From Oscillospiraceae bacterium (GTDB lineage: Bacteria; Bacillota; Clostridia; Oscillospirales; Oscillospiraceae), in contig JAFTGD010000023.1 of NCBI GenBank assembly GCA_017458065.1, positions 35,722-99,721 of the forward strand: a stretch of DNA of 64,000 bases, given 5' to 3'. How positions within the stretch are numbered: the first letter of the stretch is position 1; every line of letters starts with the position of its first letter. Under the pieces are notes generated by a model. The model saw only the letters and a list, made by a program, of their open reading frames with translations, was not told the DNA's origin and ran no database searches. A program made the translations under genes and the position numbers. Positions 1 to 14,665 of this stretch are shown here, in pieces.

Positions 1-607
1 ATTCACCTCCCACTTTCTGGAAATCGGGAAAACACTGATGACGCTTGACGATTCCCCCATCGAGCAGAGCCTTCGGTGGAGGGATCTCTACGAGGCCGTT
101 GTCCTGCGGATCTACCGGGTATACCCCTGGCTGCGCCTGTATTATCACCCGGAGGAGTTCCTCCGGGCGGATTTCATCCGGGAGCAGGACACCCAGACGG
201 TTCGCAACACCTGTCTCCGCAAAAGCAGGCTGCTCCACGCGGCCCTGATCGAGCTTCTTCCCCCGGAAGCCAATGAGGAGATGACGTCGATCCTGATTTA
301 CCTGCTTCGAAATCTGGAACAGAATCTGCAGCAGAAGGAAGTCGCCGAGCACTTTTATATCACAAACTCCACGCTGAGCGCCCGTTTTCAGACGCATCTC
401 GGATATTCCTATCGGGATTACATGACCCGTGTTAAGATGATCCGCGCCAGATATCTCATCCGCTATTCCGATCTGGAGCTCCGGGACCTTGCCGGCCGCC
501 TCGGTTATAAAGACCGGGAGTATTTTTCCGAACTGTTCGAGCAGCGCACGGGGCAGTCCCTCGCGGCGTACGCTGCGGATCACGAAGGGACACACTACGT
601 TATTTAA
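1..607 (+). CDS. AraC-family transcriptional regulator, C-terminal part (5' end outside window)
   Basis: The frame is open to the left edge of the window, so the gene is probably cut by it; the first in-frame ATG is at 38 but has no convincing ribosome site. The last ~90 residues form the double helix-turn-helix of AraC/XylS regulators (pattern AEHFYITNSTLSARFQ followed by LAGRLGYKDREYFSELFEQRTGQS). The N-terminal part looks like the linker of a two-domain response or ligand-sensing regulator. It lies 33 bases before the ABC binding-protein gene on the same strand, so control of that importer is likely (inference). The ligand cannot be told from the visible part. Confidence 0.85.
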   Translation, partial: FTSHFLEIGKTLMTLDDSPIEQSLRWRDLYEAVVLRIYRVYPWLRLYYHPEEFLRADFIREQDTQTVRNTCLRKSRLLHAALIELLPPEANEEMTSILIYLLRNLEQNLQQKEVAEHFYITNSTLSARFQTHLGYSYRDYMTRVKMIRARYLIRYSDLELRDLAGRLGYKDREYFSELFEQRTGQSLAAYAADHEGTHYVI

Positions 608-640: not shown

Positions 641-1591
641 ATGAAGAAAAAAACCGCATTCGGGTTTCTGGCTTTCATCTGTGTGTGCAGCAAGCTGCTC
701 GTCATCGGCGCCGCTGCGTCTGCGGAAGAACCGGCCTCTGTCACCGTCGTCGACGACCTCGGCAGAGAGGTCATAGCGCCTTACCGTCCGCAGCGCGTCG
801 CTGCGCTGCTCGGCAGCTTTGCCGACATCTGGACGCTGGCGGACGGCCCCGACAGCCTCGTCGCCGCGGCCGAGGACACCTGGACTTCGTTCGATCTGGA
901 TCTGGGCGAAGATGTCGTCAATCTGGGCCCGGTACGGAGCTTTGACCTTGAAAAGCTTATCGCTTCCGAGCCGGATCTCATTCTCGCCAGTTCCGTGCAG
1001 GCTCTGGACCTGGAGCTGCTGCCCACATTTGAGGAGCTTGGCTATCCTGTCGTCTACTTTGACGTCTCCGGTTTTGCCGAGTATCTTCACATGCTGGAGG
1101 TATGCACGCAGATCACCGGCGCACAGGACCGTTACACCCGCTACGGCAGCGACGTGGTGGCACAGGTGGACGCCGCCATCGCCCTGCAGGACGGCAGCGC
1201 ACCCTCCGTTCTCTACATCCGGGCTTCCTCAGGCAGCTTCAGCGTCAAAGGCAGCGAGGGCAATGTGCTCGGCGAGATGCTTGCCGCGCTGGGCTGCCGG
1301 AACATTGCCGACGGGGACAACAGTCTGCTGGAAAACCTGAGTCTGGAAGTGATTCTGGAGGAAGACCCCGACTACATTTTCATTGTCTATCAGGCCGCCG
1401 ATCCCACCCAGGCGCAGGCCCTGCTGGAGGAATCTCTGCTGTCCAATCCCGCCTGGTCCGGGCTGCGGGCCGTGCAGGAGGGGCGGGTTTTTGTTCTGGA
1501 ACACCGGCTGTATAATCTCAAGCCGAATGCGCAGTGGGGAGCCGCCTATGAAGCGCTCGCCCGGATCCTGTACGGGGATGACGAATCATAA
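641..1591 (+). CDS. ABC transporter substrate-binding protein, iron-siderophore/corrinoid type
   Basis: This 316-residue exported protein has a signal peptide (KKK start, hydrophobic stretch to about residue 25, AASA-EE cleavage). The mature part is a TroA/BtuF-like fold: the DDLGREVIAPYRPQRVAAL start, PDLILAS, PDYIFIV and NPAWSGLRAVQEGRVF signatures are typical of binding proteins for Fe(III)-siderophores, heme or cobalamin. An AAGGAAGAG ribosome site precedes the ATG. No lipobox cysteine follows the hydrophobic stretch, which is unusual for a Gram-positive binding protein. It overlaps the permease gene by 14 bases. The linked siroheme gene favours iron or a tetrapyrrole as cargo, but that is inference. 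Confidence 0.88.
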   Translation: MKKKTAFGFLAFICVCSKLLVIGAAASAEEPASVTVVDDLGREVIAPYRPQRVAALLGSFADIWTLADGPDSLVAAAEDTWTSFDLDLGEDVVNLGPVRSFDLEKLIASEPDLILASSVQALDLELLPTFEELGYPVVYFDVSGFAEYLHMLEVCTQITGAQDRYTRYGSDVVAQVDAAIALQDGSAPSVLYIRASSGSFSVKGSEGNVLGEMLAALGCRNIADGDNSLLENLSLEVILEEDPDYIFIVYQAADPTQAQALLEESLLSNPAWSGLRAVQEGRVFVLEHRLYNLKPNAQWGAAYEALARILYGDDES

Positions 1592-2579
1592 GCGGCTCTT
1601 CAGGACCGCCGCCGCTCTCGGCGTCTGCGTCCTGCTTTCCGCGCTGCTGAGCATCTGTCTGGGGCCGGTGAAGCTCTCCCCGGCGCAGATTCTTCTTGCG
1701 CTGTTTGAAGGGGACAGGGCCAGCACCTCCGCGCGGATCATTGCGCATGTCCGACTTCCGCGCACCTTTGCCTCGCTTCTGACCGGGGCGGCGCTGGCCG
1801 TCTCCGGGGCCATGATTCAGAGCGTTCTGGAAAACCCCCTCGCCGCGCCCAATGTGATCGGCGTCAACACCGGCGCCGGTCTGGCCGTGGCCCTCTGCTC
1901 CGCCCTGATGCCGGGCGCTTTTGCTTTTCTGCCGGTTGCCGCCTTCCTGGGCGCGCTGGCCGGTGTGCTGCTGGTCATGCTGATCGGGGAACGGACAGGC
2001 GCCTCGCGCCTGACCCTTGTGCTCGCAGGCATCGCCGTCTCAGCGGTTTTTTCCGGCGCCATCGACATGATCCTTACACTTGTCCCGGAATCTCTGAGCG
2101 CCTATTCCGACTTTCGCATCGGAGGCTTTGCCGGTGTGACGATGCAGAAAATCCGCCCGGCCGCCGTCGTTATCGGCGCGGCGTTTCTCCTGGCGAGTTC
2201 TCTCGCGCCCCAGATGGAACTGCTTGCCCTCGGGCAGGACACCGCCCGTAGCCTCGGTCTGAGAGTGAAACCGGTTCGCATCCTGCTTCTGACGGCCGCC
2301 GCCGCGCTGGCGGGGGCCGCGGTCAGCGTTGCGGGGCTGGTGGGCTTTGTGGGGCTGATTGTCCCCCATGCCGCAAGGAAGCTTTCAAACGGGGAAGGAC
2401 TCTGGCTCCTGGTCTTCTCCGCGCTGGGCGGTGCCGCTTTTGTTACCGTATGCGATCTGATCGCGCGGACGCTTTTTTCTCCCTACGAGCTGCCCGTCGG
2501 CATCGTGCTTTCCTTCCTCGGCGGGCCCTTCTTTCTCTGGCTGATTCTTCGCCGGAAAGGGGGCCGCGGAGATGCTTGA
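1578..2579 (+). CDS. FecCD-type ABC transporter permease
   Basis: This 333-residue polytopic membrane protein is of the FecCD/BtuC family. The hallmark stretches are visible: LPRTFASLLTGAALAVSGAM, NPLAAPNVIGVNTGAGL, LGQDTARSLGL and the cytoplasmic GLVGFVGLIVPHAARKL motif that contacts the ATPase. A longer reading frame runs upstream to 1383, but that extra part is the out-of-frame shadow of the binding-protein gene. The ATG at 1578 gives the normal family length and begins MTNHKRLFR before the first helix. It overlaps its neighbours on both sides (14 and 8 bases), indicating translational coupling. Confidence 0.9.
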   Translation: MTNHKRLFRTAAALGVCVLLSALLSICLGPVKLSPAQILLALFEGDRASTSARIIAHVRLPRTFASLLTGAALAVSGAMIQSVLENPLAAPNVIGVNTGAGLAVALCSALMPGAFAFLPVAAFLGALAGVLLVMLIGERTGASRLTLVLAGIAVSAVFSGAIDMILTLVPESLSAYSDFRIGGFAGVTMQKIRPAAVVIGAAFLLASSLAPQMELLALGQDTARSLGLRVKPVRILLLTAAAALAGAAVSVAGLVGFVGLIVPHAARKLSNGEGLWLLVFSALGGAAFVTVCDLIARTLFSPYELPVGIVLSFLGGPFFLWLILRRKGGRGDA

Positions 2580-3348
2580 GCTTTGCAATGTGTGCAGCGC
2601 CTACGGCGGCAGAGAGGCGCTGTCCGAGATCAGCCTTCGCTTTGAACCGGGAGAGGTTCTGGTGATCATCGGTCCCAACGGCAGCGGAAAAAGCACGCTT
2701 CTGCGCACCGCGCTCGGCCTGCAGCCCAAAACCGCCGGCGAGATTCTTCTGGACGGGCAGCCTCTGGAACAGTTCAGCCCCCGGCAGACAGCCAGAAAAA
2801 TTTCCTATCTGCCCCAATTCCGAAACGTCCCGGACATTACGGTCCAGCGCCTGGTGATGCACGGCCGCTTTCCCCATATGGGTTATCCCCGCCGATACAC
2901 GGCGCAGGATCGCAAGATTGTCGCCCGCGCGCTCGATCGCGCGGGAATCCCGGATCTGGCCGCAAGGCCCATTAAGAGCCTGAGCGGGGGGCAGCGCCAG
3001 AAAGCCTATCTTGCTATGACGCTCGCTCAGGAGAGCGAGACGCTCCTTCTGGATGAACCGACAACCTATCTTGATGTCCGTCACCAGTTGCAGCTGGCTG
3101 CGCTCGCCCGGGTGCTTGCCTCCGAAGGGAAGGCTGTGGTCCTGGTGCTGCACGAATTGCCTCTGGCTTTCCGCGTCGCCGACCGCATCGCTCTGCTGGA
3201 CGGGGGCCGTCTGATTGCTCTGGCGGTGCCGGAGGCGCTTTTCTCGGATCAGATCCTGGCCGAGCTCTTCGGCGTTACCCTGCGGCGGGTCAGGGACGAG
3301 GGCGGCTGGCAGTATTATTACAGCATCCATGCAGATCTGGAGGGATAA
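2572..3348 (+). CDS. FecE/BtuD-type ABC transporter ATP-binding protein
   Basis: This 258-residue ATPase powers the FecCD permease. Walker A is GPNGSGKST (about residues 35-43), the ABC signature is LSGGQRQ, Walker B is ETLLLDEPTTYLD, and the switch histidine lies in VLVLHELPLAF. The layout matches FecE/FhuC/BtuD. The start overlaps the permease stop by 8 bases, and the next gene begins 2 bases after its stop. It thus belongs to a four-gene importer/siroheme transcription unit. Confidence 0.92.
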   Translation: MLELCNVCSAYGGREALSEISLRFEPGEVLVIIGPNGSGKSTLLRTALGLQPKTAGEILLDGQPLEQFSPRQTARKISYLPQFRNVPDITVQRLVMHGRFPHMGYPRRYTAQDRKIVARALDRAGIPDLAARPIKSLSGGQRQKAYLAMTLAQESETLLLDEPTTYLDVRHQLQLAALARVLASEGKAVVLVLHELPLAFRVADRIALLDGGRLIALAVPEALFSDQILAELFGVTLRRVRDEGGWQYYYSIHADLEG

Positions 3349-3350
3349 CC

Positions 3351-3968
3351 ATGGCCTGGTTCCCGATGTTTATTCAGCTTGAAGGCGCCCGTGCGCTTCT
3401 GATCGGCGGAGGGAAAACCGCCCTCGGCAAGGCGCAGCGGCTGGAACCCTACGGCGTCACGCTGCACGTCGTCGCGCCGGAGATATTGCCTGCGCTGGCG
3501 GCGCTGCCCCATGTAAGCGTCAGGGCGCAGCGTGTTTTCTGTCCGGAGGACCTGGAGGAAGACTTTCTGTTCGTGATTGCGGCGACGGACGACCGCGAAG
3601 CGAATCACAGGGTATCGCAGCTTTGCCACGAAAAAAGAATCCCCGTGAACGTGGTCGACACGCCGGAGGACTGCTCTTTCCTTTTTCCCGCGCTGGTGCG
3701 CCGGGGACCTCTGAGCATCGGCATCTCAACCGGCGGAGCAAGCCCCTCAGGCGCACGCCGCCTGAAGGACGACATCGACCGGATGCTTCCCTCCGGCATT
3801 GGGGACATTCTCACCTGGCTGGATACGACGCGCCCCGCGATCAAAGCGCGCGTTTCCTCCGAAGCGCAGCGCAAGACCGTTTTCGATCTGCTTTACAGCC
3901 GCTGTGTCGCCCTCGGCCGCCCTTTGACAGAGGCGGAACTGCAGGCGCTTCTGGAGGACTTCCGATAA
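3351..3968 (+). CDS. Precorrin-2 dehydrogenase / sirohydrochlorin ferrochelatase (Met8p/CysG N-terminal type)
   Basis: This 205-residue protein is of the bifunctional family that oxidises precorrin-2 with NAD and inserts Fe(II) to give siroheme. The N-terminal Rossmann segment ALLIGGGKTALGKAQRL binds NAD, DFLFVIAATDD follows, and the C-terminal half carries SIGISTGGASPSGARRLKDD, the counterpart of the SSGGTSP-ARL region of CysG. It follows the ATPase gene by 2 bases. Siroheme is the prosthetic group of sulfite reductase, and two siroheme-type genes lie 1.8 kb away on the opposite strand. The placement therefore makes sense as cofactor supply plus iron uptake for the sulfur operon. Confidence 0.88.
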   Translation: MAWFPMFIQLEGARALLIGGGKTALGKAQRLEPYGVTLHVVAPEILPALAALPHVSVRAQRVFCPEDLEEDFLFVIAATDDREANHRVSQLCHEKRIPVNVVDTPEDCSFLFPALVRRGPLSIGISTGGASPSGARRLKDDIDRMLPSGIGDILTWLDTTRPAIKARVSSEAQRKTVFDLLYSRCVALGRPLTEAELQALLEDFR

Positions 3969-4029
3969 AAGCGCCGCACACATTGATTCGCGGCGGCGAC
4001 GTTTTCTCCCCGAACCCTGCGCTGATTGT

Positions 4030-4066
4030 AAAAGACGGCACTGACTTTTTGTCAGTGCCGTCTTTT
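4030..4066. terminator. Bidirectional rho-independent terminator
   Basis: A perfect 16-bp stem (AAAAGACGGCACTGAC and its complement) with a TTTTT loop lies between two convergent operons. The stem ends give A/T-rich tails on both strands. It should stop the importer/siroheme unit and the sulfur operon. Confidence 0.9.
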
Positions 4067-4493
4067 AATCATAGAGTTCCAGGATTTCCCATTCCGCCTC
4101 GCCGTTTCGAATGCGGAATGCATTCAGGTTCGGGACGGTTTCGGACTCCAGCGACAGAATCATATACGTCGCGGCAGGGTCATAGGCCAGCCGGATATCC
4201 TCTTCGGACGGTCTGGAGGGCGTCTCGGGATGGGAGTGCCAGTTGCCCAGCGGATTCAGGCCTTTTTCCCTCATATCCCGGATTGCGGCCAGCTGTTCCA
4301 TGGGATCCAGAGAGAAATGCTCCGGAGAGGCATCCGTGTTGCGGAGAAGATAGACCTCTTTGATGTCCCGGATTCCGTTCTCCTCCGTTCCGGCAAGCAG
4401 GCCGCAGGCTTCATTGGGCAGTTCCCGCAGGGCATGCTCAATCAGCTTCTTCGCGTTTGCCCCGCTGAGTCTCACCTTTGTATTCGGGTTCAA
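4065..4493 (-). CDS. JAMM/M67-family metallopeptidase of a sulfur-carrier system
   Basis: This 142-residue protein carries a complete JAMM zinc-protease signature: Glu28, then His86-x-His88, Ser96 and Asp99 in NWHSHPETPSRPSEED. Stand-alone bacterial JAMM proteases next to ThiS and ThiF homologues (QbsD, Mec+, HcyD) trim residues after the GG of the carrier or release the finished amino acid from it. Here the carrier two genes upstream ends GGGC, so a removable residue is present. The ATG overlaps the ThiF-like stop by 4 bases. It is the last gene of the operon and ends at the shared terminator. Confidence 0.9.
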   Translation of the reverse strand: MNPNTKVRLSGANAKKLIEHALRELPNEACGLLAGTEENGIRDIKEVYLLRNTDASPEHFSLDPMEQLAAIRDMREKGLNPLGNWHSHPETPSRPSEEDIRLAYDPAATYMILSLESETVPNLNAFRIRNGEAEWEILELYD

Positions 4494-5308
4494 GGCGCTT
4501 CTCCCTTCAGGTCGCAGGAGGGCTGTTCATAATCGATCAGCTCGGTGATCGTGGGGTGTTCGCCGCAGACCGGGCAGTCCGGCACGTTTTCCGGCAGCTT
4601 GACGGTATAGAACTCGTTGCTCAGCGCATCGTAGGTCAGCAGCTTTCCGACGAGAAGCTCCCCTGCCCCGGTGATGTACTTGACCGCCTCCAGCGCCTGC
4701 AGGCAGCCGATCACCCCTGCCATCGCCCCTACCACGCCGGCCTGTCTGCAGGTCGGGACGGCGTCCTTGGGCGGCGGGTTTTTAAAGATGCAGCGATAGC
4801 ACGGGCCTTCGCCCGGCACATAGGTCATCAGTTGTCCGCTGAAGCGGATGATACCCGCATGGCAGAAGGGCTTCTTTGCCATGACGCAGGCGTCATTGAT
4901 CAGGAACTTTGCCGGGAAGTTGTCCGTGCCGTCGAGGATGAAATCATAGTCGTTTATAATGTTCAGGATATTCTCCGCGGAGATAAACTCATGATAGGTC
5001 ACGACTTTTACGTCCGGGTTTAAGGCCTCGATGGTTTCACGGGCCGATTCCACCTTGGGCTTGCCGATATCCGCGGTGCTGTGGATAATCTGCCTCTGCA
5101 GATTGGACAGATCCACCACATCGGCATCCGCGATCCCGATCGTCCCCACTCCTGCCGCCGCAAGATACATCGCAGCAGGCGCGCCGAGTCCGCCGGCGCC
5201 GATGATCAGCACTTTCGCATTCAGCAGCTTCTTCTGTCCCTTTACGCCGATGTCTTTCAGAATAATATGGCGCGAATACCGCTCCAGCTGCTCATTGGTG
5301 AACGCCAT
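4490..5308 (-). CDS. ThiF/MoeB/HcyF-family carrier-protein adenylyltransferase
   Basis: This 272-residue E1-like enzyme activates the C-terminus of a ubiquitin-fold sulfur carrier as an acyl-adenylate. The nucleotide loop is GAGGLG (37-42), the NLQRQ and GKPK residues follow, then DGTDN (126-130), and two zinc-binding pairs CYRC (170-173) and CPVC (245-248). The ATG at 5308 overlaps the carrier stop in TGATG and is preceded by a G-rich ribosome site; a TTG start six bases upstream is possible. No thiG, thiH or moaE gene is near, so a role in thiamine or molybdopterin synthesis is not supported by context. Confidence 0.88.
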   Translation of the reverse strand: MAFTNEQLERYSRHIILKDIGVKGQKKLLNAKVLIIGAGGLGAPAAMYLAAAGVGTIGIADADVVDLSNLQRQIIHSTADIGKPKVESARETIEALNPDVKVVTYHEFISAENILNIINDYDFILDGTDNFPAKFLINDACVMAKKPFCHAGIIRFSGQLMTYVPGEGPCYRCIFKNPPPKDAVPTCRQAGVVGAMAGVIGCLQALEAVKYITGAGELLVGKLLTYDALSNEFYTVKLPENVPDCPVCGEHPTITELIDYEQPSCDLKGEAP

Positions 5309-5514
5309 CAGCAACCGCCCCCCATAAAGTACAGAAATTCCACAACGTCTCCGTCGTGCAGTTCCTTTGCCGCGCGGTCTGCGGTCTGGATAAAGTCGTT
5401 GTTCACCGTTACCGTGACATACTCTGGCATATCCACCTGCTCCAGAGAGAGGAGCTGTTCTACCGTTGTCCCGTCCGGGAGCTCTTTTCTTTTGCCTGTT
5501 ACTGTAATCTGCAT
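5308..5514 (-). CDS. ThiS/HcyS-like sulfur carrier protein ending -GGGC
   Basis: This 68-residue beta-grasp protein matches ThiS in length and pattern (short strands, LHDGDVVEFLYFM near the end). The C-terminus reads MGGGC. Ordinary ThiS and MoaD end in free GG, which is adenylated and converted to a thiocarboxylate. An extra residue after the glycines is the hallmark of carriers processed by a JAMM protease (QbsE, HcyS-Ala). The adjacent JAMM and ThiF-like genes fit that. Expected role: carrying sulfide as a thiocarboxylate for transfer to an amino-acid acceptor. A metY/cysM-type acceptor enzyme is not in the window. Confidence 0.85.
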   Translation of the reverse strand: MQITVTGKRKELPDGTTVEQLLSLEQVDMPEYVTVTVNNDFIQTADRAAKELHDGDVVEFLYFMGGGC

Positions 5515-5528
5515 GGTTCTCTCCTCCG

Positions 5529-5774
5529 TCAGTCGCCGACCTTGCGTACGATCAGCTCGTAAGTTCCGTCCTCATTGTTCAGAAGCCTCAGGATCTGATG
5601 CCCCTCTTCCTTGATGCTGCGGGGTACGTTCTGCACCGGTTCGCCGTCGTTCAGCCGGACGGACAGGATATCCCCATCCTCCAGCTCTTCCAGCGCAACC
5701 TTGGCTTTTACAAAGGTCACGGGGCAGACCACATCGGTGATGTCGATATGGTCCGTTATCTGATACTCAGCCAT
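5529..5774 (-). CDS. TusA/YedF-family sulfur-transfer protein
   Basis: This 81-residue protein carries the TusA-type sequence ITDVVCPVTFVKAKVALEEL. The single Cys in CPVT corresponds to the persulfide-carrying Cys of the CPxP motif, with Pro changed to Thr at the last position. It overlaps the end of the sulfite-reductase-like gene by 8 bases and lies 14 bases before the carrier-protein gene. It is well placed to pass sulfur from the reductase to the carrier. TusA homologues are common beside such clusters; the direction of transfer here is inference. Confidence 0.85.
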   Translation of the reverse strand: MAEYQITDHIDITDVVCPVTFVKAKVALEELEDGDILSVRLNDGEPVQNVPRSIKEEGHQILRLLNNEDGTYELIVRKVGD

Positions 5775-6639
5775 GATACGCCTCCTCTACGGTCTTTTTC
5801 AGCTCGTCCCAGCCGACGCGCTCAATGGTCTTGGCAAAGCGTTCGCCGCGATTGGCATTGCGGTCGAAGAAGTCGATCGCCGCATCCGCCACCCGTAGCA
5901 TGGCATCTTCATCGGTGATGATCGGAAGCAGCTCCTGTCCCTTCTGGATCGAGTTGCCGAACGTGCCCCCGAACGAGACGATATAGCCGCTCTCGCCTTT
6001 CCACGCATCCACGGGACATGACTTGACACAGCGCCCGCAGTAATTGCACTTTGACGCATCGTACTCTACTTTTCCGTCTGTAAAGGTGATGGCCTGCAGG
6101 CGGCAAACCTTCGCGCAGACGCCGCAGTGAATGCAGCTGTCCTCCTCATAGCTCGGAACCAGCCCGCCTTTGACGCCGAAGTCGTTCTCCTCCGCTTTCA
6201 GGCAGTTGTTCTGGCAGCCGGTGACGCCGAATTTGAACTTGTGCGGGAGCTGGCGTCCGAAGTATCTCTCGTCCAGCTTCTCCGCTACCTCCAGCGCGTT
6301 GATGCATCCGCTGGGGCAGCAGACGCCGCCCTGGCAGGCGGTCACGGTGCGCACTCTCGGTCCGCAGACGCCCGGCTGGACGCCGCCTTCCGCCAGCGCT
6401 TCCTTTACGGCGTCAATATCTTTCAATTGGATAAACGGGATCTCCACGCCCTGCCGGGACGTCAGATGGACATAGCCCTTGCCGTATTTCTCCGCCACGG
6501 CCGTAACGGTGGCAAGCTGTTGGGCGGTGAGGTTGCCCCCTACTACCCGCAGCCGCAGAGAGAAGTTATCCTTCTGCATCTGCCGCATGAATCCGCCGGC
6601 TTTCAGCGCCGCATAATCCGGTTTTTTGTTTTCTGCCAT
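5767..6639 (-). CDS. Siroheme 4Fe-4S sulfite reductase-like protein with two ferredoxin clusters
   Basis: This 290-residue protein starts with a nitrite/sulfite-reductase ferredoxin-like half domain (residues ~15-90, HLTSRQGVEIPFIQL). The siroheme/4Fe-4S ligand pattern follows: Cys102 and Cys108 (C-x5-C), Cys142 and Cys146 (C-x3-C). A 2x[4Fe-4S] ferredoxin insert (Cys169-179 and Cys198-208) completes it. This is the layout of small assimilatory-type reductases such as AsrC. The ATG at 6639 has a GGGAGGAG ribosome site; the longer upstream frame is a shadow. The likely reaction is six-electron reduction of sulfite to sulfide, here using sulfite released by the neighbouring glycyl radical enzyme. 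Confidence 0.9.
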   Translation of the reverse strand: MAENKKPDYAALKAGGFMRQMQKDNFSLRLRVVGGNLTAQQLATVTAVAEKYGKGYVHLTSRQGVEIPFIQLKDIDAVKEALAEGGVQPGVCGPRVRTVTACQGGVCCPSGCINALEVAEKLDERYFGRQLPHKFKFGVTGCQNNCLKAEENDFGVKGGLVPSYEEDSCIHCGVCAKVCRLQAITFTDGKVEYDASKCNYCGRCVKSCPVDAWKGESGYIVSFGGTFGNSIQKGQELLPIITDEDAMLRVADAAIDFFDRNANRGERFAKTIERVGWDELKKTVEEAYHG

Positions 6640-6640
6640 G

Positions 6641-7108
6641 TTATCTCCTCCCAAGATATTGATCCAGACTGTAAAACAGTTCTTCCTCCTGTCGGAAAAA
6701 CTGCATGCGCCTGTTTTCTTCCGACTCGCTCTGCACGAGGTACCCCGGCTTTGCCGTGACCGCGCACACCGGGCAGACCCTCTCACAGATTCCGCAGTGC
6801 AGGCATTTTTCCCTCTCCAGGCTTATGTTTCCCTCCCGGAGCTTCAGCGCCCCGGAGGGGCATTTTCTGACACAGGCCCCGCAGCGGATACAGGCGGCGT
6901 CATCGATGTCCACTTCCTGTCCGCCGCATATTTTCAAATCGAACTGCTTCCGGCACCGGCCGGCGCGAAGGCAGCTGTTCGGGCAGCCGTAGACCCCGAT
7001 GCGGATCTCTGCCGCATCGTAGCGCAGCTTCAGCTTCTGAGCCAGCGCGCAGCTGTCGATGCAGCCCGCAGGGCAAATCGCGTTTCCCTGACAGACCGCG
7101 CTGCTCAC
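6641..7108 (-). CDS. Half-length sulfite-reductase paralogue (siroheme site plus ferredoxin, no N-terminal domain)
   Basis: This short protein (about 155 residues) aligns with the second half of the adjacent reductase. It keeps C-x5-C (Cys6, Cys12) and C-x3-C (Cys42, Cys46), and a two-cluster ferredoxin segment (Cys73-83, Cys102-112). It lacks the entire N-terminal ferredoxin-like reductase domain that helps bind siroheme and substrate, and the DNA upstream is the activase gene, so that part was not simply missed. The start is uncertain: GTG at 7108 overlaps the activase stop by 4 bases, and TTG a few codons upstream is an alternative. It may be a partner subunit or electron-transfer protein of the full-length enzyme. 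Confidence 0.75.
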   Translation of the reverse strand: MSSAVCQGNAICPAGCIDSCALAQKLKLRYDAAEIRIGVYGCPNSCLRAGRCRKQFDLKICGGQEVDIDDAACIRCGACVRKCPSGALKLREGNISLEREKCLHCGICERVCPVCAVTAKPGYLVQSESEENRRMQFFRQEEELFYSLDQYLGRR

Positions 7109-7896
7109 AGCATGCTTGGCCAATTTCCTTCCGCCCCCTCCTGTGTCGCTTCCAGCCCATAGCCCCTGACGATTTCCCGCAGGGATGAAATCTCGTCCGC
7201 GCTGAGCCGCACGTCGCCCATCGGATATTCTCTGCCGAGGCCGGTGTATTTGTCTCTGCCCAGCCGGTGATAGGGCAGCAGCTCGTAGCTCAGCTCCCCC
7301 GGCAGGCTTTTCAGAAAGCGGCAGATTTTCCCGATCTCCTCTTCGGTGTCGTTGAAGCCCGGGATCACCGGCGTACGGACGGTGAAGCGTCCTCTGCCGG
7401 AGAGTCCCGCAACCATACAGATGTTTTCCAGAATGCGGTCGTTCACTACCCCCGTCCAGTGCCTGTGCTTTTCCGGGTCCAGACACTTCAGATCCATGTA
7501 GATCATGTCCAGCTTCTCCGCGATACGCAGGACCAGTTCCTGCTCTCCGTAACCGCTTGTCTCGATCGCTGTCTTCAGATGGCGCCGTTTTGCCTCGGTC
7601 AGCAGCGCAAGTGTAAATCCGCCCTGAAACAGCGGTTCCCCGCCGCTCACGGTCAGGCCGCCTCCGCCGCGCCGGAAAAAGACTTCGTCCTTTTCCACTT
7701 CCTGCAGGATTTCATCCGTGCTCATCCGTCTGCCGATCTTCTCCAGCTTCATAAACTCCGGTTGAGCGTTCTGGGTTTCCGGGTTGCAGCACCACCTGCA
7801 GCGCAGGGGGCAGCCTTTCAGGAAAACTGTCGTACGGATCCCCGGCCCGTCCTGCAGAGAATAGTGCTGGATATTGCTGACGATCCCGTACTCCAT
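7105..7896 (-). CDS. islB: Glycyl radical enzyme activase (radical SAM), isethionate-lyase type by context
   Basis: This 263-residue radical-SAM protein carries the CxxxCxxC motif (Cys29, Cys33, Cys36), the activase opening DGPGIRTTVFLKGCPLRC and the SAM-binding GGEP. It generates the glycyl radical on the enzyme encoded just upstream. No 8-Cys ferredoxin insert follows the SAM motif, so the protein resembles the short pyruvate formate-lyase activase layout rather than the longer activases of many other glycyl radical enzymes. The ATG lies 1 base after the enzyme's stop. The symbol rests on the identity of its partner. Confidence 0.88.
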   Translation of the reverse strand: MEYGIVSNIQHYSLQDGPGIRTTVFLKGCPLRCRWCCNPETQNAQPEFMKLEKIGRRMSTDEILQEVEKDEVFFRRGGGGLTVSGGEPLFQGGFTLALLTEAKRRHLKTAIETSGYGEQELVLRIAEKLDMIYMDLKCLDPEKHRHWTGVVNDRILENICMVAGLSGRGRFTVRTPVIPGFNDTEEEIGKICRFLKSLPGELSYELLPYHRLGRDKYTGLGREYPMGDVRLSADEISSLREIVRGYGLEATQEGAEGNWPSML

Positions 7897-7897
7897 G

Positions 7898-10369
7898 TCA
7901 GACAGCCTGCTGCTCGGTTCGGGCAATGATGTCGTCCTGGAGGTCCTTCGAGAGCTCGGTAAAATATGCGCTGTAGCCGGCAATCCGCACCAGAAGGCTC
8001 CGGTACTGCTCAGGATGCCGCTGGGCCTCGATGAGCGTTTCGGTGTTCAGAACATTGAACTGAATATGCCAGAGCCGCAGATCATGCCAGGCCTGGATGA
8101 ACTGAACCAGCTTTTCCGTCCCCACGTCACCCGACACGCAGGAGGGGCTGAGCTTGACATTCAGCAGGCGCGCCGCCCGATCCCGGCACCCCTGGTTTTT
8201 GGTGGCAAAGTTCGAGAGCAGCACGGCCGTCGGACCGTTGCGGTCGGCCCCCTGCGAGGCGCTGCTGCCGTCGCTGAGCGGCATCCAGGCAAGACGCCCG
8301 TTGGGCGTCGCGGCAACCACCTTCCCGAAAGGCACATGGGACGTAAAGGGCACCAGGCGCAGATCCAGATGGACGCCCAGTTCTTTGGAGTATCTGGCCG
8401 TGAAGTCCAGCGCTTCCCTGTCCAGCCGCTTGCCGATGGCATCGGCATACGGGTCGTTGTTCCCATAGGCGGGGGCGTTCTTCAGCAGATTGCGCAGCTG
8501 CTCGCGTCCCTCAAAATTGGCGGCGATTGCTTCCTGCAGTTCCCGGATCGTGACCGTTTTCTCTTCATAGACGTATTTTTTGATGGCGGCGAGAGAATCG
8601 ATCACCGTTCCGTAGCCGATGAATTCAAAATAGCCGAGGTCGATTCCGCCCGGGATAACAGGCTGATGCAGATCCTTGTATTCCGCACGGCACAGCTCAT
8701 GGAGCATGGAGCCTAAGGGACTTGCAAAGTGCTGCGCGCGCAGCCGGATAATCTGGTATTCCTGAACAAAAGCATGCCGGATAAAATAGCGCTGTTCTTT
8801 GAGATACGCTTCGAGGAACTCCTCGAAGGTCTCAAAGTCCTCCACCGGTCCCGCGTCGATGCCGATCTCTTCCTCGCCGAACTTCAGCATCCTGCCATGG
8901 AACAGGGTCATCTCCAGCGCAGCGGCGAAATTGATATACGCGCAGGGGCTGGTATAGGTGTCGCGGTTTGGCATGCGAACCTCAGAGCAGCCCGAGACGC
9001 TGTAGTCGTTGGCCTCTTCGATCCGGGCGCCCTTTGCCAGCAGCAGCGGGATCACCTCGTCGTCGTTAATGAGCTTCGGGAAGCCGCTCCCCTCTTTGAT
9101 GGTCTCGGCAACCTCCCAGAGGTAACGGCGCGGACTGAGCGTGTGCACCCGGGCCGCGAGATCCGGATAGTTCAGAGGGAAATTCCGCTTGGAACGCAGG
9201 AACAGATAGGTAAGCTCGTTGGTCGCGTCCACACCGTCCCGGTCGACGCCGCCGACGGTCACCGCCTCCCAGTGGGCATAGCCCTCGTTGAAGGAGCCTC
9301 CGGCCGCCGAGAGATAGAGGTCCACATATTCGCTCATGGCGACCCACATGGATTCCAGCAGCTCTTCCGCGTCCTCTTCCGTCATCACGCCGGCGTCAAT
9401 GTCCTGCCGGTAGTAAGGATACAGATACTGATCCATACGTCCGTTTGAGATGACCGTGCCGGTCTTCTGCTCGATGCGCGAGAACATCTGCACATACCAC
9501 TGCGACTGCAGCGCCTCATAGAAGCTTCTCGGTGCAAACTCCGGTACATGCTCGCTTGCCTCGGCGATCCGAAGCCAGAACGCCTTCTGATCCGGGTCCG
9601 TCTCCTTCTCCGCATAGCTTCTCGCAAGCTGCGCATGCCGATGCGCCCAGAGGACGATGGCATCGCAGGTCAGGATGGCTGCCTCCAGGAAGGGCTTTTT
9701 CTCCATCGTGTCGACCGCGCTGTCGGGATCCAGCGTCTCCAGTTTTTCGGCAAATTCCTTCCTCAGGCCGGAAATGCCCTTTTTCAGCACGATTTCGTAA
9801 TCATGCACCCACTGAATAGAGGACCGGTAAGATGCCGTCTCATTGACGATAAAGCGGGAAGTCCCATCCTCGTTGTAGGTCAGCCGCCTGGTGTCCGCCG
9901 GGAAAGCTGTCAGCAGATCTTCATGGAAGGTTTTCCCCTTCCAGTAAGGAGATATGATTTTTTCCACAATCTCGGCATCCGCCGGGTCAATGTCGAAGGG
10001 GGATGTCTCCCTCTCCGGCAGATGACGGATCGCCTCGTCCAGAATGTCTCCGTCAAGCTCGGGATACAGCACGCCGTACCGCCCCGGCTTTCCGGCGCGG
10101 CCGGCCAGAAGCTGGTCTTCTTCCAGATATACCGTCGCTTTTTCGGCATAGTGATAGAGGGCCTTTGCCCAGCGCAGATTCAGCGGTTCCCCTTCGGTCT
10201 CGCGGAAGCTCTCTGTAAAAAACAGTCCCCGTTCAATGTCGATCACAGGCTTCTGATTCCTGCTGCGAAGCAGCAGCTTCACAGCTCTGTTCCGGGATAG
10301 AAACACCGGCTCTCCGGTTTTTCTTTCGTTCTCAATACGGCTCTCCTGAACCGACAAAATGTTGCTCAC
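7898..10369 (-). CDS. islA: Glycyl radical enzyme, probable isethionate sulfite-lyase
   Basis: This 823-residue enzyme has the thiyl-radical Cys461 in SGCSEV, Glu463 two residues on, and the glycyl-radical loop RIAGYSAYF with Gly798. Residues reported for isethionate sulfite-lyase (recalled as Arg189, Gln193, Cys468, Glu470, Arg678, Gly805 in Bilophila IslA) fall at Arg182, Gln186, Cys461, Glu463, Arg671 and Gly798 here, a constant offset of seven. The substrate would be isethionate (2-hydroxyethanesulfonate), the products acetaldehyde and sulfite. The genes that follow encode sulfite-reductase-type proteins, which fits. The start is GTG with AGGGA upstream. A related sulfonate such as dihydroxypropanesulfonate is the main alternative substrate. 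Confidence 0.82.
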   Translation of the reverse strand: MSNILSVQESRIENERKTGEPVFLSRNRAVKLLLRSRNQKPVIDIERGLFFTESFRETEGEPLNLRWAKALYHYAEKATVYLEEDQLLAGRAGKPGRYGVLYPELDGDILDEAIRHLPERETSPFDIDPADAEIVEKIISPYWKGKTFHEDLLTAFPADTRRLTYNEDGTSRFIVNETASYRSSIQWVHDYEIVLKKGISGLRKEFAEKLETLDPDSAVDTMEKKPFLEAAILTCDAIVLWAHRHAQLARSYAEKETDPDQKAFWLRIAEASEHVPEFAPRSFYEALQSQWYVQMFSRIEQKTGTVISNGRMDQYLYPYYRQDIDAGVMTEEDAEELLESMWVAMSEYVDLYLSAAGGSFNEGYAHWEAVTVGGVDRDGVDATNELTYLFLRSKRNFPLNYPDLAARVHTLSPRRYLWEVAETIKEGSGFPKLINDDEVIPLLLAKGARIEEANDYSVSGCSEVRMPNRDTYTSPCAYINFAAALEMTLFHGRMLKFGEEEIGIDAGPVEDFETFEEFLEAYLKEQRYFIRHAFVQEYQIIRLRAQHFASPLGSMLHELCRAEYKDLHQPVIPGGIDLGYFEFIGYGTVIDSLAAIKKYVYEEKTVTIRELQEAIAANFEGREQLRNLLKNAPAYGNNDPYADAIGKRLDREALDFTARYSKELGVHLDLRLVPFTSHVPFGKVVAATPNGRLAWMPLSDGSSASQGADRNGPTAVLLSNFATKNQGCRDRAARLLNVKLSPSCVSGDVGTEKLVQFIQAWHDLRLWHIQFNVLNTETLIEAQRHPEQYRSLLVRIAGYSAYFTELSKDLQDDIIARTEQQAV

Positions 10370-10564: not shown

Positions 10565-10593
10565 TTGACAAAAATCCGCCCGGCGAGTATGAT
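10565..10593 (+). promoter_or_regulatory. Consensus sigma-A promoter of the YeiH-type transporter
   Basis: TTGACA (10565-10570), 17 bases, then TATGAT (10588-10593) is close to ideal. It predicts a start near 10600 and an untranslated leader of about 310 bases, long enough to carry the RNA structure and leader peptide described next. Confidence 0.8.
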
Positions 10594-10913: not shown

Positions 10914-12290
10914 ATGAGCAATAAACCCACTTCTGCCGCTGTCGCCAGCGACGAGCTTGTCACAACTGAAAAATTCAAAGTCAGCGACCTCTGGAAGACG
11001 GATGACTGGCAGGCCGTTTGGATCGGCTTTATCATCATTCTTGTCGGCGCAATCGCCGTCTTGACCAGCGGCTTTGATTTCTCTGCGGCCAACTTCTCTA
11101 CCTGGGGACACGGTGCCAGCGTTCTGACGCAGCTGAACAGCGCGCTGCTGATAAAACTGCTGCGCACCTTCCTGGTCCTCGGTGTACTTTTCACGCTGGG
11201 CAAAGCCCTCCAGGGAAGCTCCGCCGCCAGATTTATCCCCGCGTTTGCGGGCCTGTTTGCGCTCGCAATTCTGGTCCGCTTCATCAGCGCCGAATACACC
11301 TTCAACCGCTATCTGGAATGGGCCTTTTTCGCCATCGCTGTCGGACTGCTGATTTCCAACACCGTCGGCGTTCCAAACTGGCTGCGCCCCGCGGTTCAGA
11401 CCGAGTTCTACATCAAAGCCGGGCTTGTCATCATGGGCTTTTCCGTGCTGTTTTCCAACATCATTAACTTCGGGCTTTACGGGCTCGGCATTGCCTGGGT
11501 CGTAACGCCCATCGTCATCATCTTCATGTGGTACTTTGGTACCCGTGTTCTGAAGATCGATAACAAGCCTCTGATCATCACCATGGCCACCGCCACCAGC
11601 GTTTGCGGCACCAGCGCCGCCATTGCCTCAGGTGCTGCAGCCAAGGCGAAGAAAACGGATCTTTCTCTCACGGTTTCCATCTCCATTCTGTTCACTGTTC
11701 TCATGATGGTGCTGGAGCCCATTATCATCCGAGCTGTCGGCCTCGGGGAGGTCATGGGCGGCGCGCTGATCGGCGGTACTGTCGATTCTACCGGTGCTGT
11801 CACCGTCGCCGGCACAGCGCTTGGCGAGACGGCCCAAACCGTCGCCGTGCTGGTCAAATCCATCCAGAATATCCTCATCGGCTTCATTGCCTTTGCTGTT
11901 GCGGTGTTCTTCACCACCCGCGTTGAAAAAGCAGATGGCAGCGGGCGGAAGGTCGGCGCGTCAGAGATTTGGTACCGGTTGCCCAAGTTCATTCTCGGCT
12001 TCTTTGCGGCAAGCCTGGCAGCCTCTTTCATCGTACGTCCTCTCGCCGGTGGCGACGCTGTTTCCGCTATTAACAAAGTGCTTGATCAGTACAAAAACTG
12101 GGCCTTTGTCCTTGCGTTTACCAGCATCGGTCTGGATACCAACTTCCGTGAAATCAAAGAACAGCTGCAGGGCGGAAAGCCCCTTGCTCTGTACGTAGTC
12201 GGCCAGCTTTTCAATATTGTGCTGACTTTCCTGGCGGTCTATTTGCTGCTGTCCGGCAAGTTCTTCCCACTGCCCGCTCTGGCCGCATGA
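10914..12290 (+). CDS. YeiH-family (UPF0324) putative sulfate/sulfite-type transporter
   Basis: This 458-residue membrane protein has about ten or eleven hydrophobic segments. Family signatures include VGVPNWLRPAVQTEFYIKAG, the conserved ATATSVCGTSAAIA stretch, GGTVDSTGAVTVAGTALG and FTSIGLDTNFREI. The family is annotated as sulfate exporter, though few members have been tested. ATG at 10914 has AAGGAG ten bases upstream. It is divergent from the sulfonate/sulfite operon and under a Cys-codon leader. This suggests movement of a sulfur oxyanion or sulfonate; raised expression on Cys shortage would suit an importer better than an exporter. Confidence 0.8.
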   Translation: MSNKPTSAAVASDELVTTEKFKVSDLWKTDDWQAVWIGFIIILVGAIAVLTSGFDFSAANFSTWGHGASVLTQLNSALLIKLLRTFLVLGVLFTLGKALQGSSAARFIPAFAGLFALAILVRFISAEYTFNRYLEWAFFAIAVGLLISNTVGVPNWLRPAVQTEFYIKAGLVIMGFSVLFSNIINFGLYGLGIAWVVTPIVIIFMWYFGTRVLKIDNKPLIITMATATSVCGTSAAIASGAAAKAKKTDLSLTVSISILFTVLMMVLEPIIIRAVGLGEVMGGALIGGTVDSTGAVTVAGTALGETAQTVAVLVKSIQNILIGFIAFAVAVFFTTRVEKADGSGRKVGASEIWYRLPKFILGFFAASLAASFIVRPLAGGDAVSAINKVLDQYKNWAFVLAFTSIGLDTNFREIKEQLQGGKPLALYVVGQLFNIVLTFLAVYLLLSGKFFPLPALAA

Positions 12291-12302: not shown

Positions 12303-12455
12303 ATGCATATCGGAAAAACACCCCGCCGCACACGGAAGGACCGCGTAATCTGCGCCGTTTCGGTAGTGGTCTTTGCGGCGGCCGTACTTGCAGCCGGCTA
12401 TATCATGGTATCTCTGCAACTGCATTGCGTTCTTCACAGCAGCACCTCCAAGTAA
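12303..12455 (+). pseudogene. N-terminal fragment of a membrane-anchored protein
   Basis: Fifty codons beginning with ATG encode a basic stretch (PRRTRKDR), one membrane segment (ICAVSVVVFAAAVLAAGYIM) and then run into DNA that belongs to the AbiE locus on the other strand. This is how a signal-anchored protein such as a sortase starts, but the rest is missing. The fragment ends at the same junction (~12412) where the AbiEii toxin reading frame is lost, so one deletion or recombination probably removed both gene bodies. Confidence 0.4.
12411..12437 (-). pseudogene. Remnant of the AbiEii toxin gene (first codons only)
   Basis: A GTG overlapping the AbiEi stop by four bases opens a frame reading MKNAMQLQ, the usual beginning of AbiEii nucleotidyltransferase toxins (MKNAMQLK). 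Homology stops after about eight codons and unrelated sequence follows. The toxin is therefore deleted and the antitoxin is left alone. Confidence 0.6.
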
Positions 12456-13027
12456 GCCCTGAGCTTTTCTTCAACCCGCAGTTTATGTGCATACTCCGAC
12501 AACAACGGGATGTTCTTTTCTTTGCGGGAGGCGTATTTTTTAAACGCATCTGTAACAATCTGAACATCTGTATGATTCCGGGGTCTTAAAACATCACAGA
12601 GTGAACGCTCTGCGCAGTATCCTCTAACTGCATTGCCACCGGGTGTTTTCAGATCAACGACTCCGAGGTTATACAAAGGTTCTTTTGAACCGCTGCATAC
12701 AATTCCTTCCTGCTTTGGCCCTGAAAGATTATAGGTTGCAGGAAAAACCATATGAAATTTGCTTGGCGTCCTGTCCGTGAGTTCACACAAGAAAAGCGCT
12801 GTCTCCAACGAGTAGATGCCTCGCTTAAACCGGCTCTGGATATTCACGAACTCGTCTTCCCACACTTCCGGCAACGTGTAAACCCCGCGTGATGCCCTCT
12901 CGAGACCACCGGTATCTGACAAATATTTCAGTGTGCCACGGGATATACCGGCTTCAACAACCATGGCAGTGGTAATAATGCCGTTATTCCGTTTCGCAAG
13001 TTCTAATAGTTTCTGAGTATCCGTCAT
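12434..13027 (-). CDS. abiEi: AbiEi-family antitoxin / transcriptional repressor (orphan)
   Basis: This 197-residue protein has the AbiEi layout: an N-terminal winged helix (NNGIITTAMVVEAGISRGTLKYLSDTG, ~15-40), the LERASRGVYTLP joint and a C-terminal antitoxin domain (AERSLCDVLRPRNH, ~140-155). The AbiE system is a type IV toxin-antitoxin and phage-defence pair in which AbiEi represses its own operon. Start at 13027 follows AAAGGCGGTGAC. The toxin that should overlap its stop is deleted, so only repressor or cross-protective functions are possible. A near-perfect palindromic operator with promoter lies directly upstream. Confidence 0.88.
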   Translation of the reverse strand: MTDTQKLLELAKRNNGIITTAMVVEAGISRGTLKYLSDTGGLERASRGVYTLPEVWEDEFVNIQSRFKRGIYSLETALFLCELTDRTPSKFHMVFPATYNLSGPKQEGIVCSGSKEPLYNLGVVDLKTPGGNAVRGYCAERSLCDVLRPRNHTDVQIVTDAFKKYASRKEKNIPLLSEYAHKLRVEEKLRAYLEVLL

Positions 13028-13042
13028 ATCGTCACCGCCTTT

Positions 13043-13091
13043 CTTGACTTTCTCGCTTGTTATTATAAAGAAATCAAGCAAGAAAGTCAAG
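13043..13091 (-). promoter_or_regulatory. Promoter and palindromic operator of the AbiEi gene
   Basis: Arms CTTGACTTTCTCGCTTG (13043-13059) and CAAGCAAGAAAGTCAAG (13075-13091) pair with one mismatch over 17 bp. Within them lies a minus-strand promoter: TTGACT (13090-13085), 17 bases, TATAAT (13067-13062). AbiEi proteins bind inverted repeats at their own promoters, so this is the expected autoregulatory site and it is intact. Confidence 0.8.
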
Positions 13092-13220: not shown

Positions 13221-14170
13221 TTACTCTGTCGGCAGCGTTACGACAAACCGGCTTCCTTCGCCCGGTTCGCTTTCGCAGATGATTGTGCCGTGATGTGCCT
13301 GGACGATCGCCTTTGAGATCGAAAGCCCTATCCCGGCCCCTCCGGTTTTTCTTGTTCTGGACTTGTCCGTTCGATAAAAGCGCTCAAACACCCGGCTGCA
13401 CTCATCCTTCGCAATTCCGATCCCGGTGTCCTCTACGGCCAGCTCCGCTTTGCCCTTTTCTTTTTTCACCGAAACGGTGATCCTGCCGTTTTCATCTGTC
13501 TATTTGAGCGCGTTAGACAGCAGATTGGCGATCACTTGGCCGATTCTTCCCCGATCGGCACAGAGGTGCACTTCCTCCCCGACGAGCTGTGCATCGATGC
13601 GCTTTTCCCGCAGCTGCGTCTCAAAGCCCAACAGAATGGTTTCGGCGAGACGGTATAACTCCACATCCTCTTTGTTCAGATCATATGCGGTCGCCTCCGC
13701 GCTCTCCAGGCGTTCCAGATCGGCGATCAGGCCGGACAGCCGGGCGAGCTCATCATAACAGCTTTTCAGCCGCTCTGTCGTCGGTTCCATCACATCATCC
13801 ATCATCATCTCCATGTAGGACGATATGTTTGTGACCGGCGTCCTCAGTTCGTGCGCGATGTCCTCGGTCATCTGTCTGCGCAGATATTCCTGCTCCTCCA
13901 AGGCTTCCGCCATGTGGTTCACCGCGTCCGCAAGCTCATAGGTTTCCCTCTCCTTCAGTTCCGTGCTCACCCTTACGCCGTAATCCCCCTCAGAGATCTT
14001 TTTCGTCGCGGAGATCACACCGGAAATCGGCTTTGTAACGCGTCTTGCAATCAGCAGTCCCAACAGGACCGCGACAGCCAGGGACGCCGCGCCCGCGAGA
14101 CTGAGGATCAGATTCAGGGCATGGATGAATTGAAAGCCGTTTTCATCCAGATAAAGATTCCCTTCGACTC
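13221..14170 (-). pseudogene. Histidine kinase, 5'-truncated and interrupted by an in-frame TAG
   Basis: One frame encodes the second membrane helix (LILSLAGAASLAVAVLLGLL), a HAMP domain (RRVTKPISGVISATKKISEG), the HisKA box with the phospho-acceptor His (MTEDIAHELRTPVTNISSY), the N-box (IANLLSNALK) and, after a TAG at 13502-13500, the G-boxes (VEDTGIGI, GGAGIGLSISKAIV). The TAG replaces the residue after NALK, usually Tyr or Phe, leaving the ATP-binding half separate. The N-terminal helix and sensor domain are missing; the frame fades into the DUF2318 gene end. No response regulator is adjacent. Nonsense mutation plus truncation makes this a pseudogene. Confidence 0.8.
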
Positions 14171-14665
14171 TGCAAGAAAATCGTAGGAAATCAGGATGCT
14201 GTCTTCGGTAACGGTTTTGTTCTCTTCAAAAATAGGCCAGGGATTGCATCCCCCGGAGCTCACCTCGACCTGATCCGGGGAAAAGCGGAAACCGCAATTG
14301 TTGCAGACCAGTTCTCCCTCTTCAAAGCGATAGAACCCGGCTCCGGAGGTATAGCAGCTCTGGCAGGTGTTGAACGCCGTGCGGATTGTCCCGTCGGACG
14401 CTTTGACCGCAAGCACTTCCATCGCTTCCCCGTCCACGGTGAACGGATAAAACCTTGCCTCTTCACTGATTTCCGAAATCGGGATCACCAGGGATTCCCC
14501 TTTGGCAATCACGGCCGGAGTATCGGCTGCAGGCTCTGCACTCGGCCTGTTCCCGTTCACAAGGAACACCAGGGCCGCGCAGGCAAGGACCGCCGCCGCG
14601 ATCAGGGGCAGGACCTTTCTGTTCCCGCTCGCTTCCGCCTTGCTCTTATCATTCTTAGTTGCCAT
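14114..14665 (-). CDS. DUF2318 membrane-anchored protein, 3' end fused to foreign sequence
   Basis: A single N-terminal membrane anchor (VLPLIAAAVLACAALVFLV) is followed by a DUF2318 domain with its cysteine pairs: CQSC, CNNC, then SGGCNPWPI. These Cys motifs suggest metal binding. The last ~15 residues (WMKTAFNSSMP) are encoded by DNA that in another frame is the broken histidine kinase, so the natural C-terminus was replaced at the rearrangement point. The neighbour encodes a copper-type HMA/cupredoxin membrane protein, and DUF2318 proteins often accompany such genes. Function is inferred only. Confidence 0.75.
   Translation of the reverse strand: MATKNDKSKAEASGNRKVLPLIAAAVLACAALVFLVNGNRPSAEPAADTPAVIAKGESLVIPISEISEEARFYPFTVDGEAMEVLAVKASDGTIRTAFNTCQSCYTSGAGFYRFEEGELVCNNCGFRFSPDQVEVSSGGCNPWPIFEENKTVTEDSILISYDFLAESKGIFIWMKTAFNSSMP

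Follow-up and report, generated by a model that had tools for sequence, protein, structure and literature searches.

An IslA-like glycyl radical enzyme in one operon with sulfite reductase and sulfur-carrier genes: a candidate route from sulfonate sulfur to homocysteine in an Oscillospiraceae bacterium

The window analysed here is a 64,000-nt stretch (contig C79, positions 35722–99721) of the 3.6-Mb draft genome (G000; completeness 96.4%, contamination 2.9%) of an Oscillospiraceae bacterium. Positions 4065–10369 of its minus strand are occupied by an operon of eight genes, separated by successive gaps of 1, -4, 1, -8, 14, -1 and -4 nt, which encode, in order, an IslA-like glycyl radical enzyme (GRE), its activase, a half-length sulfite-reductase-like protein, a complete siroheme-type sulfite reductase (SIR), a TusA-family protein, a ThiS-like carrier, a ThiF-type activator and a JAMM protease (Table 1). 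The order and tight packing agree with the initial annotation, and the family names given there are borne out by Pfam and NCBIfam scans (PFL-like and Gly_radical; Radical_SAM; NIR_SIR and NIR_SIR_ferr; TusA; ThiS; ThiF; Prok-JAB), as is the linked siroheme synthase, whose CysG N-terminal domain the domain scans place at 3351–3968 on the plus strand. We hypothesize that the operon serves anaerobic sulfur assimilation, in which sulfur from a sulfonate would become sulfite, then sulfide, then the thiocarboxylate of a carrier, and would end in homocysteine. We consider this likely from the genes, their active-site residues, their linkage and recurrence, and from the fact that no sulfate front end was detected; two known half-pathways would appear to have been joined more than once, another front end standing in place of the sulfate one.

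Our working hypothesis is that the activase would switch on the radical enzyme, which would split isethionate into acetaldehyde and sulfite, and that the SIR, aided by the adjoining siroheme gene, would reduce sulfite to sulfide. The JAMM protease would trim the residue behind the GG of the carrier, ThiF would adenylate the trimmed ThiS-like protein, and the adenylate would take up sulfide, with TusA as a likely courier, to give the thiocarboxylate. MetY, encoded beside the locus, would use this thiocarboxylate to form homocysteine, which the JAMM protease would then release from the carrier. Of the route from an organosulfonate to amino-acid sulfur that had been proposed at the outset, the enzyme type and the co-occurrence of the genes stand, while the substrate, every reaction, a single mRNA, the formation of a thiocarboxylate and the flow of sulfur are what we infer. 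The homocysteine end is suggested by the nearby MetY gene and by analogy with the Wolinella pathway.

The identity of the radical enzyme is central to this hypothesis. Its best solved relatives are the IslA structures 7kq3 (1168 bits) and 5ymr (1142 bits; entry verified as IslA) and the structure 6lon (1082 bits), which we take to be HpsG, followed by choline lyase (515 bits). Clustering with a non-sulfonate GRE had been named at the outset as an outcome that would speak against the proposal; a GRE of that kind was rejected on these scores, and the description of the enzyme as isethionate sulfite-lyase-like is upheld by them and by the active-site residues. The window GRE keeps R189, Q193, W374, C468, E470, R678, F682 and G805, including the catalytic Cys, the Glu of the GCxE motif and the radical Gly (C468, E470 and G805). 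The first seven of these residues are kept in all 78 IslA loci compared and G805 in 77 of them, with a gap in L021; two further loci (L038 and L046) had no usable open reading frame. In Bilophila wadsworthia IslA, for which the residues engaged in isethionate binding or catalysis have been defined, mutants in R189, Q193, C468, E470 or R678 are inactive and those in F682 or W374 are reduced in activity (PMC8473560).

The GRE might instead cleave another sulfonate, for example 2,3-dihydroxypropanesulfonate, in the manner of HpsG. The sole NCBIfam model above its cut-off for the GRE is indeed the HpsG model NF048011 (1414 bits against a cut-off of 1000), the tree does not separate 6lon from the IslA groups, and HpsG is also able to cleave isethionate (PMC13219744). 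The 12 families listed include no model for IslA, so the HpsG model may be broad. Both IslA chains score above 6lon, and the window GRE has F682 and a GGSFN loop in agreement with IslA, whereas 6lon has I at position 682 and a GNEFQ loop; position 682 and this loop presumably set specificity. An HpsG identity was rejected on these residues, which together with the bit scores speak for IslA over the NCBIfam name. We describe the enzyme as IslA-like by its residues, and regard cleavage of a different sulfonate as improbable.

The IslA loci compared are the best 80 of 184 encoding a relative and are not a random sample; the tree has 85 rows, with outgroups too distant for rooting. The window GRE lies in a 51-row IslA clade (SH-like approximate likelihood ratio test, 100) that excludes all 15 rows in which sigma-54, TRAP or Rnf neighbours point to respiration. 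These 15 group with the Desulfovibrio and Bilophila enzymes or on other branches outside the clade, and none of them has the SIR set or a siroheme gene. By record titles the clade is mostly Bacillota, together with Bifidobacterium, a spirochaete, Tannerella and a Synergistaceae metagenome-assembled genome (MAG), and its members are presumably fermenters. Its 50 other loci carry parts of a sulfonate ABC importer (29 loci), an aminotransferase with an iron alcohol dehydrogenase (18), the SIR set (11), a siroheme gene (10) and FecB (5). The nearest named IslA is that of L001, an Oscillospiraceae MAG. The presence of IslA in close relatives was rejected: among 149 genomes, 57 had some GRE match, and outside G000 none had a full-length match above 35% identity (partial pieces reached 42%). 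At five loci from Oscillospiraceae MAGs (L042, L054, L057, L061 and L075), islA is preceded by three genes, for a GAD/MfnA-like pyridoxal phosphate (PLP) decarboxylase, another enzyme and an aminotransferase, and one might guess from them at a route from cysteate through taurine to isethionate.

In a dissimilatory role isethionate would serve as an electron sink, redox balance would be kept by reducing the sulfite to H2S, and the carrier genes would be bystanders. In favour of such a role, AsrC-like reductases can be dissimilatory. Organisms that respire sulfite are also known to have IslA (PMC6386719, PMC6453916). We find this distinctly unlikely in view of the clade's lack of respiratory neighbours, the presence of the carrier genes within the same operon, and the finding that the operon's SIR is the sole NIR_SIR match in the draft genome, with no DsrAB-type reductase seen.

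Neither of the sulfate-assimilation families PF01747 and PF01507 has a match in the draft genome, and CysD, CysN and AprA were not found in the window; with no second NIR_SIR protein present, the sole visible source for the SIR is therefore sulfite from a sulfonate or from outside. The carrier module was also examined at 24 SIR loci with no IslA in the stretch (L174–L197, from 23 genomes), comprising all 17 other matches of the class-wide SIR search described below and seven of the 10 matches outside G000 from the search with the half-length protein. CysD, CysN or AprA is encoded at 17 of these 24 loci as against one of the 80 IslA loci (L004), and MetY at 16 of the 24. Within 20 kb, the exceptional L004 carries IslAB, SsuABC, MetY, a partial AprA and a complete sulfate transporter. 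Five of the 24 (L187–L190 and L193) combine this type of SIR with CysD/CysN and sulfate transport and have no ThiS, ThiF or JAMM in the stretch, which suggests that the carrier genes are not always needed for the reductase to work. The best reading is that the module is a stock unit, often fed by sulfate in this class, whose front end would here have been swapped for radical sulfonate cleavage.

The pairing of IslA with this module is recurrent. The set was scored as present where SIR had at least 50%, ThiF at least 70% or TusA at least 60% identity to the window protein, and by this measure it occurs at 11 of the 80 IslA loci (L001, L009, L013, L014, L023, L034, L054, L058, L063, L064 and L075). 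SIR is found at all 11, 0.8 to 9.6 kb from islA and thus within 10 kb, TusA at eight, and ThiS, ThiF and MetY at six each, a positive outcome for the search for IslA homologues with HcyS/HcyD-type genes in one neighbourhood that the initial annotation had suggested. L001 is the fullest, with an SsuABC-like importer, IslA, activase, SIR, TusA, ThiS, ThiF, JAMM and MetY in a row. L023 adds a TauABC-like importer, an aminotransferase and an alcohol dehydrogenase, a possible path from taurine, and in L013 and L014 TauABC-like and SsuABC-like importers lie between SIR and islAB, with an alcohol dehydrogenase and an aminotransferase behind. Of the strains with names, Lachnospiraceae KH1P17 (L034) has the linked set, whereas Clostridium chromiireducens DSM 23318 (L026) has IslAB and sulfonate importers and shows no linked set within the 22 kb covered. 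In a base-rate sample of 391 genomes of the class, this type of SIR (E value of 1e-80 or better) was found in 17 including G000 (16 of 390 others), and IslA (E value of 1e-200 or better, at most two candidates per genome) in G000 alone (0 of 390 others). Given these rates and a genome size near 3 Mb, independent placement would be expected to put SIR within 10 kb in well under one of 80 loci.

On a careful tree of the clade (39 rows scored, 12 short-contig rows left out), the starred branches force seven changes in presence of the set, which is somewhat clustered (six of 500 shuffles gave a count as low); four changes are forced on the SIR tree. The window SIR groups with SIRs from stretches that lack IslA (L197 and L174; 100/98) and not with that of L001, whose IslA is the nearest. 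From the changes forced on the IslA, SIR and ThiF trees, the pairing has probably arisen, or been lost, on several occasions.

In all 23 correctly read rows (the remaining one of 24, L075, was read at the wrong place), the linked ThiS proteins end in LY(F/Y)MGGG followed by at least one residue (C, R, Q, SI, AI and others); the window protein likewise has residues behind the GG and ends in GGGC, and such a capped tail requires a trimming protease. In the Wolinella pathway of Krishnamoorthy and Begley (2011), a JAMM protease is said to trim the capped carrier in this way. In the operon the ThiF-type activator, the JAMM protease and the SIR are adjacent, and we take the motif HSHPETPSRPSEED to satisfy the JAMM rule; the linked TusA proteins share CPxTFV. 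An alternative would assign ThiS, ThiF and JAMM to thiamine, molybdopterin or tRNA thiolation, their position here being due to chance, given that ThiS exceeds its NCBIfam cut-off and ThiF that of one MoeB model (PRK05690). The extra tail residues that call for a protease, and the recurrence of SIR with TusA, ThiS, ThiF, JAMM and MetY across many genomes, make this highly improbable.

The window genome has 14 matches to Cys/Met PLP enzymes, eight of them strong. One is the MetY-like gene at C79:33843–35078, 0.65 kb left of the window and about 4.7 kb from the end of the operon. In a tree of 34 rows its product falls among module-linked MetYs, nearest to that of L004 (60% identity), while of the seven other paralogues of the genome three are far off and four lie in a starred six-row group with two unlinked rows. 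At two other loci (L034, 14.7–16.3 kb; L063, 19.8–21.5 kb) a diverged second JAMM (33–35% identity) and ThiF (43–44%) directly follow MetY, perhaps as a second carrier set. The module could also supply cysteine by the logic of CysO/CysM/Mec+, with MetY acting on O-acetylserine. TIGR01326, the best NCBIfam match of the MetY-like protein, spans O-acetylhomoserine and O-acetylserine sulfhydrylases, and JAMM with a carrier is also the mycobacterial design for cysteine. The recurring PLP partner is nonetheless MetY-like, as at the SIR loci without IslA, and the capped tail reportedly resembles that of Wolinella HcyS; we consider a cysteine route unlikely and retain homocysteine as the expected product.

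The activase differs from most of its relatives. Between its radical-SAM and GGEP motifs lie 45 residues with one Cys, similar to the activases of L001, L002 and L057 (45–48 residues, 1–2 Cys), whereas the equivalent stretch in the other readable activases has 85–150 residues and 5–10 Cys. For this comparison L046 (55) was truncated, L008 and L023 lacked a readable motif, and seven of the 80 loci had no plus-strand activase. Directly behind the activase gene lies that of the half-length SIR-like protein, for which Pfam gives Fer4-type domains only and whose best NCBIfam match is to positions 105–223 of the 314 of AsrC. It keeps the cysteine positions of the siroheme cluster and has two ferredoxin motifs, and it lacks the substrate-binding half. 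No such half-length form was found elsewhere in 394 genomes of the order, with at most nine candidates scored per genome; the 10 matches outside G000 sit in frames of 286–362 amino acids (36–47% identity), and G000 itself gives one further match, to the full SIR of the operon (37%). The half-length protein as a wider feature was rejected, since its relatives look full-length and the short gene was seen in the window only. L001 has neither the ferredoxin insert nor a half-length gene, and for this reason a link between absence of the insert and the half-length gene is a guess. A bolder proposal would be that the window represents a second, assimilatory branch of IslA outside the sulfite respirers, repeatedly joined to a sulfite-to-homocysteine module that carries sulfonate sulfur to amino acids on carrier proteins, in which the half-length protein acts here as a shared ferredoxin-type donor to the reductase and to the ferredoxin-less activase; we think it doubtful in this full form.

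Several observations weigh against the assimilatory hypothesis. There is the HpsG model score given above, and although the GRE is clearly set apart from non-sulfonate GREs by score, in the tree 6lon, the respiratory IslA proteins and the window clade form an open fork. The activase falls below the sole related NCBIfam activase model (310 against 430), and the MetY-like protein below the TIGR01326 cut-off (424 against 495), its exact place in the tree being without starred support. Of the clade's other 50 loci, 39 have no SIR set in the DNA examined. Among the 11 linked loci, JAMM (at least 50% identity) is found at only three (L001, L034 and L064), ThiS and ThiF at six, and L013, L014 and L054 show SIR alone (L054 with MetY), partly from contig ends. 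The ThiF tree forces only one change. The set was scored as lacking in 27 rows, 12 of them with less than 8 kb on one side, so that some absences may be false and the count of seven changes too high. No sulfur riboswitch was found when Rfam was run at gathering scores on 12 sources, made up of the window and 11 other loci, and control by such a riboswitch was rejected. The locus is without SsuABC or TauABC, and no SsuA-family protein exceeds the cut-off in the window genome (five weak matches), so that import is left unexplained by our hypothesis. Absences in a draft of this completeness and contamination are also not proof.

Divergent from islA lies a gene for a YeiH-family protein, probably a sulfite valve or exporter and less likely a sulfonate permease; the former reading follows from Salmonella, where resistance to sulfite depends chiefly on yeiH (PMC12880088). 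A promoter scan gave five sites against 2.4 expected, the best (10565–10593, plus strand) being directed at the YeiH gene, and listed no minus-strand site ahead of islA. The hairpin between the operon and the convergent importer and siroheme genes is common to both ends and was not listed by a consensus scan. The importer genes are presumed to be Fec-type, and the gene at the left edge of the window to be response-regulator/AraC-type.

Table 1. Features of the operon and its surroundings (positions in the window)
Feature	Position	Strand	Basis
Response-regulator/AraC-type gene (presumed), 3' part; starts left of window	1..607	+	
FecB-like binding protein	641..1591	+	homologues at L054, L058, L061, L063, L064
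FecCD-type permease (presumed)	1578..2579	+	name and start read from sequence
FecE-type ATPase (presumed)	2572..3348	+	
Siroheme synthase N-terminal domain (CysG N-terminal)	3351..3968	+	Pfam and NCBIfam
17-bp hairpin, terminator-like, between convergent operons	4029..4067	.	-28.9 kcal/mol, z -11
JAMM metalloprotease, motif HSHPETPSRPSEED; candidate trimming and release protease	4065..4493	-	domain scan; motif from sequence
ThiF/MoeB-type adenylyltransferase	4490..5308	-	domain scans
ThiS-like carrier, C-terminus capped (ends GGGC)	5308..5514	-	domain scans and sequence
TusA-family protein (VVCPVTFVKAK)	5529..5774	-	domain scan
Siroheme-type SIR, AsrC-like; NIR_SIR_ferr, NIR_SIR, 2x4Fe-4S	5767..6639	-	
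Half-length SIR-like protein (C-terminal half, two 4Fe-4S motifs, no NIR_SIR_ferr half)	6641..7108	-	
Radical SAM activase, IslB-like, without Cys-rich ferredoxin insert	7105..7896	-	Pfam/NCBIfam, motif spacing
IslA-like GRE, isethionate sulfite-lyase type, 823 amino acids	7898..10369	-	Pfam/NCBIfam, solved relatives, residues, tree
YeiH-family (PF03601) membrane protein, divergent from islA	10914..12290	+	Pfam; TIGR00698 below its cut-off

A foreign origin of the contig was rejected: the two best matches of an aminopeptidase encoded on it are from genomes of the same genus (73% identity), and GC content is even (operon 0.58, window 0.56, left part of the contig 0.58). Carriage on a plasmid was likewise rejected, the 20 plasmid records matched all being below 60% identity and the 10 listed at 34–35%. 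The same contig encodes a second, distant GRE (32% identity) with an activase (C79:5901–8246; L122). Further into the window, the minus-strand gene at 14713–16320 encodes a protein that starts with a heavy-metal-type domain and has a multi-pass central part, which we take to resemble a TSUP/DsbD-type transporter, and is adjoined by a small CxxC-motif gene (14114–14665); the minus-strand gene at 12434–13090 presumably encodes an AbiEi-type antitoxin.

Chien and co-workers are said to have found in 1995 that fermenting clostridia take sulfur from taurine and isethionate anaerobically. In the excerpts available of the open-licence PMC literature searched, the enzymes for the use of sulfonate sulfur by fermenters are not named, and no report was found of a native assimilatory IslA or of IslA joined to a carrier pathway (subscription papers were outside the scope). 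IslA homologues occur in many Firmicutes, and their role was left to future work (PMC6386719). The operon and its recurrence provide a concrete, testable gene set for such use and might account for the ability of some anaerobes to live on sulfur from sulfonates. They also suggest that many islA genes found in surveys of gut and rumen could be markers of sulfur assimilation rather than of respiration that forms H2S; islA counts would then have to be read differently.

The window system resembles the IslA/IslB systems of Bilophila and Desulfovibrio (7kq3, 5ymr) in fold family, active-site residues and an adjacent activase; it differs in belonging to another clade, in having no respiratory neighbours, in an activase without the ferredoxin insert and in the assimilation module joined to it. 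With the Hcy system of Wolinella (HcyS/HcyF/HcyD/MetY) the presumed likeness is in gene set, namely SIR, a capped ThiS-like carrier, ThiF, JAMM and, probably, MetY, but in the window a radical lyase acting on a sulfonate would supply the sulfite, and TusA and the half-length SIR-like protein are also encoded. Sulfate-assimilation loci of the same class (L176, L195–L197 and others) share MetY, SIR, TusA, ThiS, ThiF and JAMM; they have a CysD/CysN/AprA front end, often with sulfate transport, none of which front-end genes was found in the window. The nitrogenase-like IsrBHDK of Rhodobacter capsulatus also releases sulfite from isethionate without O2 for sulfur nutrition, by an enzyme unrelated to the GRE of the window, and is contrasted with the dissimilatory IslAB of B. 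wadsworthia (PMC11423573). In the same report islAB substitutes for nflDK and supports sulfur assimilation in a Rhodobacter mutant (PMC11423573).

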